A stretch of DNA of 64,000 bases from Niebla homalea (taxonomy: Eukaryota; Ascomycota; Lecanoromycetes; Lecanorales; Ramalinaceae), in contig JAHGAU010000030.1 of NCBI GenBank assembly GCA_019925105.1, positions 310,001 to 374,000 of the forward strand. The letters are read 5' to 3'. Under the pieces are notes generated by a model. The model saw only the letters and a list, made by a program, of their open reading frames with translations, was not told the DNA's origin and did no database searches. A program made the translations under genes and the position numbers. Positions 24,265-54,106 of this stretch are shown one piece after another (position 1 is the first letter of the stretch; every line of letters starts with the position of its first letter).

Positions 24265-24269
24265 TTATT
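24265..24269. repeat. TSD of TRIM1, left copy
   Basis: ttatt, repeated at 25,257-25,261. The length of 5 bp is the rule for LTR-element integration. Confidence 0.85.
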
Positions 24270-24327
24270 TGTTAGCGCCTATGCGCACCCCGCAGGGGTG
24301 GCCCTTAAGGCCTAATACCGCTTATAT

Positions 24328-24360
24328 GGTAATAGCGGCTTACCCCTAAGCGCTATTACC
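24328..24360 (+). other. conserved hairpin in TRIM1 5' LTR
   Basis: GGTAATAGCG-g-CTTA pairs with TAAGCGCTATTACC around a CCCC loop: a 14-bp stem with one bulged G. The same hairpin occurs in the other TRIM1 LTR (25,171-25,203) and in both TRIM2 LTRs, although other parts of the LTRs differ. Confidence 0.85.
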
Positions 24361-24387
24361 TGCCTAGGTTAGCTACTTTTACCCTGG

Positions 24388-24398
24388 TGGCCGAGTGG
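24388..24398 (+). promoter_or_regulatory. A-box-like Pol III promoter element in TRIM1 LTR
   Basis: TGGCCGAGTGG matches the eukaryotic tRNA A-box pattern (TGGCNNAGTGG), as found in tRNA-Ser/Leu. It lies 15 bp before the LTR end. Confidence 0.7.
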
Positions 24399-24406
24399 TT
24401 ATCCGT

Positions 24407-24433
24407 CCTAACATTATAATAGCGCACTTTAGG
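24407..24433 (+). other. anticodon-arm-like stem spanning the TRIM1 LTR end
   Basis: CCTAA (24,407-24,411) can pair with TTAGG (24,429-24,433), leaving a 17-nt loop that contains the last bases of the LTR (CTAACA). In TRIM2 the equivalent stem is TACCCT/AGGGTA. The primer-binding site would fall within this loop and the 3' strand of the stem. Confidence 0.5.
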
Positions 24434-24473
24434 GGCTGTGTACCCCTTAAGTGAATACATAGGGGCAGGTAGC

Positions 24474-24484
24474 GGTTCGATTCT
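24474..24484 (+). promoter_or_regulatory. B-box-like element in TRIM1 internal region
   Basis: GGTTCGATTCT fits the B-box pattern GGTTCGANNCC at 10 of 11 positions, 75 bp after the A box. That spacing is normal for a tRNA gene with an intron or a long variable arm. Confidence 0.7.
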
Positions 24485-24830
24485 CGGAAAACGCAGGCCT
24501 TTTCTACACTTCTTAAAACCCAAGTGAGTGAAATTACCTAGCGTGGGGCCCGTAACGGCCTTAAACTAGTGGATTCAGGGGCCGGAACGCCCAAAAACTA
24601 CCGAAACGTGGGTTAAAAGCGAACCAATAGGGTATAAGTAACCCCGAAACTTCAAAGTGGGCCTGAGCCAATAAGCTCTTTACGGGTAATAAGTACCCCC
24701 CAGGGGGCTTAAGCAAAACGTGATGCGCGATTTTCGAGTGCGGGGCCTTGCGGGGACCGGCTCAACTGCGGGTCTTTGGTGGTCCGGGTGCCCCTCCACT
24801 GCTGGGTATCTGTTCCTAAAGGGCCGGCTG

Positions 24831-24943
24831 GGTTATACCCTTGCGGGGGCCTCTGAACCCGAAAAGTAAGTTATGCCCTTGCGGGGGCCTCTGAACCCGG
24901 AAAGTGGGTCATGCCCTTGCGGGGGCCTCTGAGCCTTTCGAGT
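24831..24943 (+). repeat. about 37-bp tandem repeat inside TRIM1
   Basis: Three successive copies of a unit containing cccttgcgggggcctctga, plus a partial fourth (cccttgcgggg near 24,950). TRIM2 carries a different tandem array at a similar place. Confidence 0.85.
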
Positions 24944-25097
24944 GCGGTACCCTTGCGGGGGGACCGGCTTAACCCCCGGTAGGTGATCCCCACAGAGGCT
25001 CTCACTGGATACCGAAGTCGGGCTTTGCGGGGCCTCCAGCCTGGGGTAACCCCCCAGAGGCGTGGTTTAATAGGCTATACACTCGGGGACGAATACA

Positions 25098-25112
25098 TAG
25101 GAGGGGAAGTAA
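25098..25112 (+). other. TRIM1 polypurine tract
   Basis: The purine-rich run ataggaggggaagtaa immediately precedes the 3' LTR, as needed for plus-strand priming. TRIM2 has ataggaaaggggatac in the same place. Confidence 0.75.
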
Positions 25113-25256
25113 TGTTAGCGCCTATACGTACCCCGCAGGGGTGGCCCTTAGGGCCTAACACCCCTTATATGGTAATAGCGGCTTACCCCTAAGCGCTATT
25201 ACCTGCCCAGGTTAGCTACTTTTGCCCTGGTGGCCGAGTGGTTATCCGTCCTAACA
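25113..25256 (+). repeat. TRIM1 3' LTR
   Basis: 144 bp, same termini as the 5' LTR, with its own copy of the A box and hairpin, followed directly by the TSD ttatt. Confidence 0.9.
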
Positions 25257-28200
25257 TTATTTTAAATTTAATTTAATTTTATATTTAATTATTAATTATT
25301 TTTTTTAAGAATATATATAAATTAATAACTTTAATGTTATTTACTTATTTTATATCTATATTAATTTACTTATAGTCTTCGGAATCTTATATAGGATTCT
25401 TTAATTATATTTATAATAATTATATTAATTATATATTTATATTTTGATAAATATATTTTTATTATTAATTTTATTAAATTAAATAAACGTATTCCTATTA
25501 TTATAAAGGTTTATTTACTTAAAAATTAATCAATATATTTAAAATTATATTTTACGGTTCTTTATAATTTTAACTTATTTTAATTTTTTTTATTTTTAGG
25601 AGCTTTTTGTAATATATATTTAAGTTTATACTTCCTGTATACGTATTAAGGCTTAAGTATATATTAAAAATTAATAAATCGATAATAATTATTACTTTAT
25701 TTCTATTAATTACCGCCGTATTAAGGGTTCATTAAATCATATTTATTTAAATTATATTTTTAAATATTAATTAAATAATTATAATTTTTATTTAAATATA
25801 TATAAATTAATTCGTTTTTTATCTAATCATCGTTAATTTTTTTTGCAGATTTTTAATATTAGAATATAATTTAAGTAAACGGTTTTTCTTTACTATATTA
25901 TATATTTCTTAATTTTAATATTGATTATAAGTTTAATTTAAAAAATTAAATACGTTTTATAATTAATTATAATTTATAATTAACTTAATAATTATAACCT
26001 TAATAAATAATTTTTTTTTATTTTCTATATTTAATATCCGATTATTATTATGATAACCTGCTTTTAATCTTTAATTATTTCGTTTTATTATTTAATTATT
26101 TTAATAATCTTGGTTATTCCGTTTTTCTTCTTTATTTTCCGTTTAATTAATTTAATTATTTATATCGTTTTCTTTTTATACGTTTATCCGATTGATTTTT
26201 TCGGTTTAAATACGTTAATTATCCCTGCGTTAATTTAACTTTACCGGTATTACCGGTTTATTTCAGTCGTATAAGCCTGGTTAAGATAAAGGGCCCGTAT
26301 AAAATATAGTTTGTCTTTTTTAAAGATTAATATTTTAACGGAATCGTATAAATAATCGTTTAAAAAGAAATCATAGTATTTATTTAACTTAAATTTAATT
26401 AAGGATATCTTTAGCTTAAATTTTGATAATCTTAACCTTAATAAATTATCTTTCCCTTTTATATATAAAGTAATTATTAACCGGTTTTTTATTTAAATGA
26501 TATATTTACCCGGGCTTTTTTATTAATTTTTCCTTTTTTTAAGTCCGTTATTCACGTTATACGTATATAATAACCTTTATTTATATTTTTATAAGTATTT
26601 CTTCCTTAATAAATTAATTTTTTTATTTTATTTTTATATACATAATAGCCTTTAAAGTCTTTAACTTAAATATAACTTTTTAACCAATTTTATTTAAAGT
26701 TATATCCGCGGGTAACGCGGTTATACTTTAAGGAAAGGTTTATATCCCTTTTTAACTTTATATTATTAATTTTAATAAACTTTACGTTCTAGATTATTCT
26801 TAAGCTTATTATATATAATTTATATTATTTAACTTCAATTTTAAATTAAAGTTTTTATAAATATTATTATAATTTTAATTTTAATATACGTTTTATTAAA
26901 AAAATATATATATAATTATCCGCGGATTAAAGTTTTAATCGGTTTTTAGGTTATTTTATTAATTTTTTAGTCGCGTTACCGGGTTTACCCGTTAAATTAC
27001 TTCCTTAATAATAAATTATTTTCATTTTAGGTTATATCCTTATATATATACCGGTCCTTTTATTCCGCTTCCGCCCCCGTTCTTAAGGTAAAATAATCAA
27101 TACGGTCTTATGCCTTATAATTACCGTTATAAAAAATAATCTTAAATATATTTTTTTATCTTAAGCGTATAATCAAGGTTTTAATTACCCGTTATTTAAA
27201 ATAATATTTATATTTATATTAATAATATATTTTACCCGTATTCTTAACGTAATATTTATAATAAATTTAATATTTGTACTTATAATCCATAAAAAAAGCG
27301 TCCTTTTAAATAGATTTTTTAATATATAAGCTTAATATTTAATTATACTTTTATTTATATATTATTCTTAATGTACTGTTTTTTTCTCTTTAAGGAAATA
27401 TTTTTAATTATAAATAATTATAGCCTTTTATGATTTTATTATTTTATAGCTTATAATATAATAAATAAAAAATTAAGGGCTTAATATCCCTTTATTTATA
27501 TTTATTTTTTCCGAATCTTTACTATATTTTTATCTTTTTTCTTTATAATTTTTTCTTTTTAATTATATTTATTAAAGTGGCTATTTATTTTTCTTCTTAT
27601 TTTTTTATTTTTAAATCTGTATTTTCTTATGATCTTTAATATACTGAAATATAAAAGTATATAAAAAAATTTTAAAAAAATAGCGTTATATTACTTATAT
27701 ATATTTCCTTCGCTTAAATCGTATTATTTATAATTATAGCGGTTTTTAAAGGATTAAGGTATTCTTTATTGGTATTTACTGGATTTTAATTCTTTTTATT
27801 ACCTTTAACTTTAATTTATCGGAAGGTTTAAGATACTTAATATACGGTATAAACACTTTAAAATAATCCTTATATAATAAATTAAATATAAAAATTTTAT
27901 TTATCCTTTTTAATATATATAATATTTTGAATTTTCCTATAAAGCCCTTAATAACAAGTAATTTAACCTAAGAAGGTTTAGGTTTCTTAAGATTTAAAGT
28001 AAAATCCTATTATATAATTAACTGCTTTTCTTTTAGTGGGTTTTAACCTTATATTCCTTTATTATAACGTTTCTTTTATCGGTTTTTTATTACGTTTAAC
28101 TTTTCTTATTATTTTTCCTTAATACTTATCCGGTTTATTATAAATCTTTAAACGGCTTTATATATTATTTCTTTTAAAAATATATTATTCTTTCTATAAT

Positions 28201-53000: not shown

Positions 53001-53005
53001 CTTAA
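53001..53005. repeat. TSD of TRIM2, left copy
   Basis: cttaa, repeated at 54,102-54,106. Confidence 0.85.
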
Positions 53006-53095
53006 TGTTATGGCAGTACCTACCCTGGAGCAAGGGCTCCGGGGTAGGGCCTACCCCTGGGGGTGATCCCCCGGGTAGACTACCTTCTTATATAT

Positions 53096-53128
53096 GGTAA
53101 TAGCGGCTTACCTTTAAGCGCTATTACC
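53096..53128 (+). other. conserved hairpin in TRIM2 5' LTR
   Basis: GGTAATAGCG-g-CTTA pairs with TAAGCGCTATTACC, the same stem and bulged G as in TRIM1. The 3' LTR copy is at 54,014-54,046. Confidence 0.85.
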
Positions 53129-53158
53129 TACCCCGGATAGCTACTTTTATCCATAAGA

Positions 53159-53169
53159 TGGCCGAGTAT
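53159..53169 (+). promoter_or_regulatory. A-box-like element in TRIM2 5' LTR
   Basis: TGGCCGAGTAT here and TAGCCGAGTGG in the 3' LTR. Each is one or two G-to-A/T-type changes from TGGCCGAGTGG. Confidence 0.6.
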
Positions 53170-53253
53170 TTATTACCCTAATAGAGTAATAACGCAACTT
53201 CAGGGTAATGCACCCCCGGAGTTAACCTTAAGGGTTTAAAGGGGTAGGTTTAT

Positions 53254-53264
53254 AGTTCGAATCC
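53254..53264 (+). promoter_or_regulatory. B-box-like element in TRIM2 internal region
   Basis: AGTTCGAATCC fits the B-box consensus (RGTTCGANNCC) fully, at the same relative place as in TRIM1. Confidence 0.7.
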
Positions 53265-53381
53265 GAGGACGCTTATAAAGTGAGACTTTTAGGTAATTCA
53301 GGAGGTAAAACTGAGCGTGAATACGGGGGCGGGTAGGACCCGCTACCCTATAGTACCGGGGGCCGAGGTCCGAGGTACAGC

Positions 53382-53524
53382 GGGGGGCCGGAATGCCTAA
53401 AAACTACCGAGGGGGGGCCGGAATGCCCGAAAACTACCGAGGGGGGCCGGAATGCCCGAAAACTACCGAGGGGGGCCGGAATACCCGAAAACTACCGATA
53501 CGGGGGGCTGAAACGCCCTAAAAC
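53382..53524 (+). repeat. about 29-bp tandem repeat inside TRIM2
   Basis: Five copies of a unit gggggccggaatgcccgaaa followed by actaccga, the last one degenerate. TRIM1 has a single copy near 24,580, so the array expanded in TRIM2 alone. Confidence 0.9.
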
Positions 53525-53907
53525 TACGCGGGCCAATCGTGGGATCATAGGTAAGGCACCTTAAGACGTGGCCTTTACCTGCTTAATAAGGAACGGTACG
53601 GGTATGGGTACTTATTAAAGGTTACCCGGGCCTACTTAATAAGAGAAAAGTAAGTTATTCTTAACGAGGATATTAAACCCCGGGCTATATTCTTATAAAG
53701 TTATTAAGCTTTTAAATTATACTTACGGGTTATTAAATCCGGGTCCGGTTTAAGAGGTTTAGATTTATACCGGAGGTAATCTCCCTTAGGTAAGGAGCTT
53801 TTAACCCTTACTTACCTATTTAATTAAGTTTTAAGAAGACCTCCAGCCTGGGGGGTAATTCCCCCCCGGAGGCGTGGTTTATAGTCTATGGGCTTAGGGA
53901 CGAGCCT

Positions 53908-53923
53908 ATAGGAAAGGGGATAC
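53908..53923 (+). other. TRIM2 polypurine tract
   Basis: ataggaaaggggatac directly precedes the 3' LTR. Confidence 0.7.
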
Positions 53924-54101
53924 TGTTATGGTAGTACCTACCTTGGAGCAAGGGCTCCGGGGTACGGCCTACCCCTGGGGGTGATCCCCCGGGTAGACTA
54001 TCTTCTCATATATAGTAATAACGGCTTACCCTTAAGCGCTATTACCTACCCCGGATAGCTACTTTTATCCATAAGATAGCCGAGTGGTTATTACCCTGAC
54101 A
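53924..54101 (+). repeat. TRIM2 3' LTR
   Basis: 178 bp, TGTTATGGTAG...CCCTGACA, followed by the TSD cttaa. Confidence 0.9.
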
Positions 54102-54106
54102 CTTAA

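Follow-up and report, generated by a model that had tools for sequence, protein, structure and literature searches.

Structural organization of the TRIM1 and TRIM2 elements

The analysed window, a stretch of 64,000 nucleotides of the Niebla homalea genome, harbors a complete non-coding LTR element, designated TRIM1, at 24270-25256, in which two LTRs, a TSD and a polypurine tract (PPT) were read from the sequence. The LTRs (24270-24413 and 25113-25256) are 144 bp each, display the ends TGTTAG...CTAACA and differ at 7 positions, 6 of which are transitions; the TSD ttatt flanks the element at 24265-24269 and 25257-25261, and the PPT, aggaggggaag, lies ahead of the 3' LTR. The longest ATG/GTG/TTG frame encodes 69 aa, frames being checked in the window copy alone, and a related repeat elsewhere in the window reads across the TRIM1 site without the element, representing the empty site. 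As a short LTR element with TSD, PBS and PPT and with no coding capacity (judged from the frames of the window copy), TRIM1 shows the makeup of a TRIM. The initial annotation had reported these LTRs, the TSD, the PPT and the lack of a coding frame, together with an A box in the LTR and a B box 75 bp further on in the internal part, and all of these were confirmed for the window copy, with the boxes located at 24388-24398 and 24474-24483. The features of TRIM1 are as follows.

24265..24269, no strand: left TSD, ttatt (window sequence and copy comparison)
24270..24413, +: 5' LTR, 144 bp, TGTTAG...CTAACA (LTR comparison)
24323..24329, +: TATA-like box, tatatgg, in the 38/38 between-family block, with the A box 65 bp downstream
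24328..24337, +: LTR hairpin, 5' arm GGTAATAGCG (pairing analysis)
24350..24359, +: proposed self-primer GCGCTATTAC, starting 27 bp past the start of the TATA-like box
24351..24360, +: LTR hairpin, 3' arm, overlapping the proposed self-primer
24358..24365, +: x, LTR side of the long-range pairing; less mutated copies read acctgccc, the window copy ends in t
24388..24398, +: A box TGGCCGAGTGG (between-family conservation, genome-wide pattern search)
24414..24415, +: 2-nt spacer tt from LTR end to PBS; the intact Tf1-type Gypsy has tt as well, TRIM2 has ga
24416..24425, +: PBS, gtaatagcgc in less mutated copies, first base a here, so that 9/10 pair with 24350-24359
24426..24453, +: predicted hairpin H2 in the interval from PBS to B box (fold prediction)
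24463..24470, +: x', internal half of the long-range pairing, gggcaggt (covariation analysis)
24474..24483, +: B box GGTTCGATTC, internal base 61 (conservation, pattern search)
24500..24503, +: T4 run following the B box; sampled host tRNA genes are followed by longer runs, T5+
25078..25097 (approximate), +: hairpin directly upstream of the PPT, pairs exchanged between TRIM1 and TRIM2
25099..25109, +: PPT (window sequence)
25113..25256, +: 3' LTR, with A box and no internal B box behind it (LTR comparison)
25257..25261, no strand: right TSD, ttatt (window sequence)

The window also contains one copy of a second family, TRIM2, with the following features.

53001..53005, no strand: left TSD, cttaa (window sequence, TRIM2 copy reading)
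53006-54101, +: whole element, 178-bp LTRs, TSD cttaa
53006..53183, +: 5' LTR, 178 bp (TRIM2 copy reading)
53118..53127, +: proposed self-primer GCGCTATTAC (PBS complementarity)
53126..53133, +: x half, acctaccc (covariation analysis)
53159..53169, +: A box, mutated in the window copy (core alignment)
53186..53195, +: PBS, one base mutated in the window copy (PBS complementarity)
53242..53249, +: x' half, gggtaggt (covariation analysis)
53255..53264, +: B box, gttcgaatcc (core alignment)
53924..54101, +: 3' LTR (TRIM2 copy reading)
54102..54106, no strand: right TSD, cttaa (window sequence, TRIM2 copy reading)

The internal region of TRIM2 contains repeats of a short motif, about ggccggaatgcccgaaaactaccg (53384-53506), which was observed once in TRIM1 (24578-24612).

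Distribution and diversity of TRIM copies in the genome

The assembly containing the window comprises 50.57 Mb in 52 contigs, where a search with TRIM1 as query yielded at least 131 match rows (40 scored of 149 candidates). The designation of TRIM1 as a miniature non-autonomous LTR element in the initial annotation is supported by at least 26 distinct full-length copies with paired LTRs, recovered from 60 loci, of which 24 display an exact 5-bp TSD, while the remaining two rows represent one array (L048) with matching outer flanks. The LTR pairs within TRIM1 copies are separated by 0-27 differences, 187 of the 204 differences being transitions, and two copies exhibit identical LTRs. For TRIM2, 13 of the 14 found loci and the window were read; L145 showed a single LTR, and the rest gave 14 rows, of which ten carry an exact 5-bp TSD, two make up a single array whose outer flanks agree, one has its 5' LTR broken and one lacks a match. 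The window copy of TRIM1 is 987 bp long, the other 25 copies range from 1049 to 2125 bp and the 14 TRIM2 rows from 965 to 1204 bp; a total length <1000 bp is given for TRIMs in the available portion of PMC10886601. The U3 regions of TRIM1 and TRIM2 appear unrelated by eye.

Head-to-tail arrays were observed in both families, with three TRIM2 LTRs, two internal regions and matching outer 5-bp flanks at L138 (C20:182000-185200), and a similar TRIM1 array at L048, where the two element rows share the middle LTR. Several copies exhibit further rearrangements. In L111 the stretch downstream of the copy's own PBS, in reverse complement, has taken the place of the U3 beside the hairpin, and in L055 the LTR hairpin stretch recurs as its reverse complement behind the B box, both rearrangements being inverted and template-switch-like; in L069 the end of the LTR, with part of the A box, is duplicated in a short tandem directly before the PBS; and A runs of very different length lie directly behind the B box in L073, L112 and L064-L066 (TRIM2), reaching about 28 in L112.

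The surroundings of TRIM1 are AT-rich and RIP-like, with a GC content of 20.5% in the window and RIP indices of 1.29 (TpA/ApT) and 0.21 ((CpA+TpG)/(ApC+GpT)). Together with this composition, 78 matches to the HET domain point to a host within Pezizomycotina. An internal GC content >55% beyond base 130 was observed in 19 of the 26 TRIM1 copies, the other 7 being mutated, and such GC-rich copies amid RIP-like surroundings suggest young copies or escape from RIP.

Conservation of the A and B boxes

The boxes were compared over an alignment of 53 cores (26 TRIM1 and 27 TRIM2). With C-to-T and G-to-A changes allowed as RIP tolerance, both boxes are present in 23/26 TRIM1 and 26/27 TRIM2 cores, the layout being kept in the second family as the initial annotation had held when it judged the recurrence in TRIM2 not to be chance; exact A boxes were found in 14/26 and 14/27 cores, and exact B boxes in 20/26 and 18/27, respectively. 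From A-box start to B-box start, 22 of the 23 TRIM1 cores with both boxes measure 85-87 bp and 25 of the 26 such TRIM2 cores 95-96 bp, and the B box starts at internal base 51-62 in 24/26 TRIM1 and at 72-73 in all 27 TRIM2 cores. The recurrence of the boxes in other copies, named in the initial annotation as a check on its reading, stands for the 49 of 53 cores that keep both boxes and breaks down in four, each without one box (L052, L057, L059 and one L101 copy with a partly deleted A box), which either tell against a strict need for the boxes in every copy or mark dead copies.

Differential conservation was observed along the core when the RIP-aware majority letters of TRIM1 and TRIM2 were matched segment by segment. 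From left to right, the block of TATA-like box, hairpin and primer matches at 38/38 positions, the next U5 stretch at 10/13, TACTTTTGC at 9/9, the stretch ahead of the A box at 2/7, the A-box columns at 11/11, the stretch on to the LTR end at 12/16, the 2-nt spacer at 0/2, the PBS at 10/10, H2 at 18/27, the linker at 7/20, x' at 7/8, the stretch ahead of the B box at 1/5, the B core at 8/9 and the stretch behind it at 4/11. The A box, the B-box core, the PBS and the TATA/hairpin block are conserved islands between the two families.

The specificity of the arrangement was examined with the pattern TGGCYGAGTGG-N50-80-GTTCGANTC over 50.6 Mb, whose gap excludes TRIM2 by design. This pattern occurs at 16 places, consisting of 14 TRIM1 copies and two tRNA-scored places (C2:299228-299333 and C9:189255-189347), and the reversed pattern at none. 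From their A-box sequence and length, the two places are presumably intron-bearing tRNA-Leu genes, the second being labelled tRNA-SeC(tca) by ARAGORN, and the 16 nt around the TRIM1 A box are identical to one of them (labelled L100, also L190). The tRNA search by Infernal (cmscan) that the initial annotation had proposed detected no tRNA fold in the element, and ARAGORN likewise detected no cloverleaf, so that what is conserved is a promoter-like motif and not a tRNA. At the gathering cut-off no Rfam match was found in the window, including the 5S rRNA of a Cassandra-like element. Overall, a conserved bipartite tRNA-type A/B signature, split across the junction of LTR and internal part, is supported.

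Primer-binding site and long-range pairing

The PBS, GTAATAGCGC, begins 2 nt past the LTR and matches LTR bases 81-90 exactly in reverse complement, its first base being mutated in the window copy. With the PBS start allowed 0-3 nt behind the LTR, a 10-nt match of this kind was reached by 14/20,000 shuffled LTRs of TRIM1 copy L032 and 16/20,000 of TRIM2 copy L140. A PBS complementary to a stretch of its own LTR, the feature of the Tf1-type self-priming group, is therefore present in both TRIM1 and TRIM2. Over the 53 cores 512 of 530 PBS/primer pairs are kept, against 59-270 in slid controls, and all ten pairs are kept in 37 cores. This helix shows little covariation, limited to 2 pairs and 4 cells, and its score of 0.069 compares with 0.059 +/- 0.003 for shuffles and with 0.066 for one of the slid controls; the helix therefore rests on complementarity, position and conservation.

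A second pairing was observed between ACCTGCCC (TRIM1) or ACCTACCC (TRIM2), which adjoins the primer in the LTR, and the complementary GGGCAGGT or GGGTAGGT just before the B box. Here 95.7% of cells pair and 23 cells are changed on both sides, with a compensatory exchange of A-U and G-C. The covariation score, 0.184 versus 0.124 +/- 0.009, lies above all slid controls and was reached by 0/500 shuffles, which related copies can beat without structure, while the counts of pairs changed on both sides and of pair types show no excess, being reached by 267/500 and 288/500 shuffles. Most of the signal represents one exchange between TRIM1 and TRIM2, and the divergent TRIM1-type L057 carries the A-U form too. 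Pairs are similarly exchanged between the two families in the hairpin ahead of the PPT, where 39 of 41 sequences fit the pattern that was read and L052 and L058 do not.

No tRNA complementary to the TRIM PBS, which is a trait of fungal Helenus elements, was found among the 63 scored of 2585 tRNA candidates in the genome scan. The 12-mer complementary to the PBS has 14 matches genome-wide, 11 of them in TRIM1, and the 11-mer BGCGCTATTAC, a pattern that would miss a tRNA in which the 10-mer follows an A, has 64 (32 for the reversed control), which were sorted by hand into 31 in TRIM copies and 33 elsewhere. Of the latter, ARAGORN reported a tRNA in 0/30, and the other three were read as non-tRNA; no 11-mer match falls at a tRNA-scored place among the 63 scored of 2585 candidates. 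The best tRNA match to the PBS complement is 9/12 in 17 sampled genes.

TATA-like box and T runs

The proposed primer begins 27 bp past the start of TATATGG, and the distance from this box to the A box is 65-66 bp in 24/26 TRIM1 cores and 65 or 68 in 24/27 TRIM2 cores. Among 20 sampled host tRNA genes a TATA motif lies 30-63 bp before the A box in 13 and 69 bp before it in L190, the gene sharing the 16 nt with TRIM1; in the rest it occurs only at 92-94 (two genes) or is absent (four genes), where the A-box position was taken from the stretch end to within +/- 2 bp and the TATA counts carry no chance control. An RNA start near the primer, set by the TATA-like box, would put the A box near +38. 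An A box alone would place the start about 20 nt upstream of itself, on the 3' side of the proposed primer.

A T5+ run was found for each of the 20 sampled host tRNA genes when 61-66 bases at and past the 3' end were read. The conserved T runs of the TRIMs, one in the 5' LTR and one following the B box, are T4 in most copies and could terminate transcription early, yielding short RNA only. Beyond internal base 130, the 19 GC-rich TRIM1 bodies contain one T5+ run versus 4.7 in shuffles and 13 A5+ runs versus 28.0, while T4+ runs are not depleted (32 versus 26.0); across all 26 TRIM1 copies T5+ runs number 17 versus 27.3, and 14 TRIM2 internal regions contain one. As a sign of Pol III the depletion is weak because the copies are related.

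Candidate autonomous partner

The search for a partner gave 148 Gypsy RNase H domain rows (150 scored of 274 candidates), three of which lack an internal stop and lie in frames of 1225, 219 and 81 aa. The 1225-aa frame encompasses RT, RNase H, integrase, SH3_Tf2-1 and Chromo domains, and its element exhibits identical 333-bp LTRs (TGTTAG...CTAACA), the TSD ACTTT and the spacer TT. Its PBS, CTAATTCTT, is a 9-nt complement of LTR bases 208-216 at the same offset as in the TRIMs, a match reached by 35/20,000 shuffles, and its PPT side, AAAGGGGGAGATAAT, resembles AGGAGGGGAAGTAA of TRIM1. No B-box match was found in 954 bases from the LTR start of this element and one loose A-box match was observed; no LTR similarity to the TRIMs was seen beyond the ends in an alignment with free end gaps, which is a weak test.

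Copia elements gave 150 listed RT matches, mostly stop-riddled. One intact Copia has a 1567-aa frame (G000 C23:739945-740682), and two further stop-free rows lie in frames of 714 and 111 aa. Over 15 nt the PBS of the intact Copia agrees with the tRNA-scored gene L094, which we take to be an initiator tRNA gene, and the self-complement at this PBS is 6 nt only. The TRIMs thus follow the Gypsy pattern, since the intact Gypsy has the self-complement and the examined Copia a tRNA-type PBS, and a Tf1-type chromodomain Gypsy is the probable partner. A gag-pol of chromovirus type was not found within the TRIM, the window copy containing no long coding frame, and exact and RIP-tolerant patterns of the TRIM PBS gave, among the matches listed out of a total of 131 (reversed control, 86), the two TRIM families and AT-rich, chance-like matches, with no autonomous element among those listed.

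Discussion

TRIMs with a tRNA promoter were named Helenus/TRIMp3 by Kojima in 2024, and the available portion of that paper reports 113 families in rust fungi and more in Agaricomycetes (PMC10886601), so that the suggestion of the initial annotation that a tRNA-type promoter in such an element might be undescribed in fungi does not stand. As described there, Helenus elements are likewise short and non-autonomous LTR elements with a tRNA-type Pol III signature, a PBS and a PPT, their boxes are conserved while most copies lack a predicted working tRNA, their autonomous partners are inferred from the PBS, and the fungal ones share the 5-bp TSD. Helenus carries its tRNA-derived sequence with both boxes inside the LTR, whereas TRIM1 and TRIM2 have only the A box there and the B box outside it. 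Moreover, fungal Helenus is listed in Table 1 of that source from Basidiomycota only, with no Ascomycota, and is described as having tRNA primers, mostly of the anticodon loop, and Copia partners (PMC10886601), unlike the ascomycete TRIM1 and TRIM2 with their self-priming layout and probable Tf1-type Gypsy partner. Cassandra, as covered in the portions available, also combines a TRIM with a Pol III-type promoter and forms head-to-tail arrays, but it is a plant element with 5S-type boxes in the LTR and a tRNA-complementary PBS (PMC7215508, PMC10886601). Nine TRIMs are known from the ascomycete Cochliobolus heterostrophus, a tRNA promoter being unmentioned in the text available (PMC4112212).

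Self-priming was shown for Tf1 and proposed for Tj1 (PMC4600332) and is reported for other fungal elements (PMC6934838), according to the parts of these papers available. In Tf1/Tf2 and Tj1, as in TRIM1 and TRIM2, the PBS complements a stretch of the element's own LTR, located in those elements at the RNA 5' end; they are autonomous, with A/B boxes unmentioned in the text available (PMC4600332, PMC6934838), whereas TRIM1 and TRIM2 are gene-less.

The sequences show the anatomy, the insertion, the conservation, the complementarity, the compensatory change, the lack of a detected tRNA fold and the presence of a matching intact Gypsy. The reading we favor, with somewhat better than even confidence, is that a split promoter yields a Pol III-type RNA and that this RNA is primed for reverse transcription by its own 5' end, with a Tf1-type Gypsy as helper; Pol III use, start site, self-priming and helper identity are all deduced from sequence features. 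TRIM1 and TRIM2 would then be TRIMp3-type elements of a filamentous ascomycete, miniature and non-autonomous LTR retrotransposons with RNA made from a tRNA-gene-like promoter, its A box in U5 of the LTR and its B box in the internal part. Because the boxes are placed in this way, the promoter is complete only where a 5' LTR continues into the internal part, and solo and 3' LTRs would lack it. The TATA-like box would set the RNA start near the LTR stretch GCGCTATTAC, the RNA 5' end would fold back on the PBS 2 nt behind the LTR, in a fold held by the second pairing of LTR and internal part, and after cleavage this 5' end would prime reverse transcription as in Tf1, with proteins supplied by the Tf1-type chromodomain Gypsy. 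Several points count against this account. The TATA-like box fits Pol II too, the start expected from the A box alone would miss the primer, and TRIM1 copies of 1.0-2.1 kb are long for Pol III; host tRNA genes end in T5+ and the TRIMs carry T4, at which termination might still occur.

An alternative that is unlikely, though the strongest of those considered, keeps self-priming and has the RNA transcribed by Pol II from the TATA-like box, the A and B boxes serving as a TFIIIC site for insulation or open chromatin. The 27-bp step from TATATGG to the primer within the fully matching between-family block, the self-primer layout of the intact Tf1-type Gypsy without a B-box match and element lengths of up to 2.1 kb all suit it; the TATA-like box itself does not point to Pol II, since 14/20 sampled host tRNA genes have such a motif 30-69 bp before the A box, and the retention of both boxes despite changed flanks speaks against it. 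An explanation of the boxes as a relic with no present role, for example of a tRNA gene or a tRNA-derived SINE that once inserted across the junction, is improbable: such a relic is expected to decay evenly, and the boxes are instead islands amid divergent flanks in two families with different U3, even though the exact 16-nt match to a host tRNA-scored gene, the lack of a detected tRNA fold, the four cores without a box and the SINE insertion proposed by Kojima as the origin of Helenus (PMC10886601, as far as available) would agree with it.

About equally improbable is a tRNA primer, whole or cut at the anticodon loop, with the LTR complementarity being incidental or an RNA-end panhandle. This mode is described for fungal Helenus (PMC10886601, in the portion available) and fits the intact Copia examined, but the 33 non-TRIM matches to the PBS complement gave no tRNA, none of the matches coincided with a tRNA-scored place among the 63 scored of 2585 candidates, and the closest of the 17 sampled tRNA genes stopped at 9/12. 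The identity of these elements as tRNA-type SINEs or DNA transposons with long repeats is contradicted by TG...CA direct repeats, 5-bp TSDs, PBS and PPT, and by LTR pairs that within a copy lie 0-27 differences apart, leaving it next to no probability. A and B boxes are typical of tRNA-derived SINEs, which likewise have no coding capacity and depend on a partner; they insert by target priming, whereas TRIM1 and TRIM2 have LTRs, PBS, PPT and integrase-type TSDs.

The self-priming layout, the RNA pairing that flanks the PBS and the probable Tf1-type Gypsy partner were absent from the initial annotation. In the literature covered, which takes in few subscription journals and several papers in part, no report was found that joins a tRNA-promoter TRIM with self-priming or describes boxes split across the LTR boundary. 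It is conceivable, at slightly under even chances, that TRIM1 and TRIM2 represent the first LTR retroelements with a self-priming Pol III genomic RNA, in which the RNA start is the primer and a split promoter is complete only in complete copies.

The findings extend tRNA-promoter TRIMs to an ascomycete and, if the favored reading is right, to another partner superfamily and priming mode, which would hint at repeated origins of Pol III TRIMs, each built on the LTR machinery that happened to be present. The split promoter offers a simple answer to how 3' and solo LTRs are kept from firing, and tying the RNA start to the primer would make it testable whether Pol III RNAs serve as templates for LTR reverse transcription.
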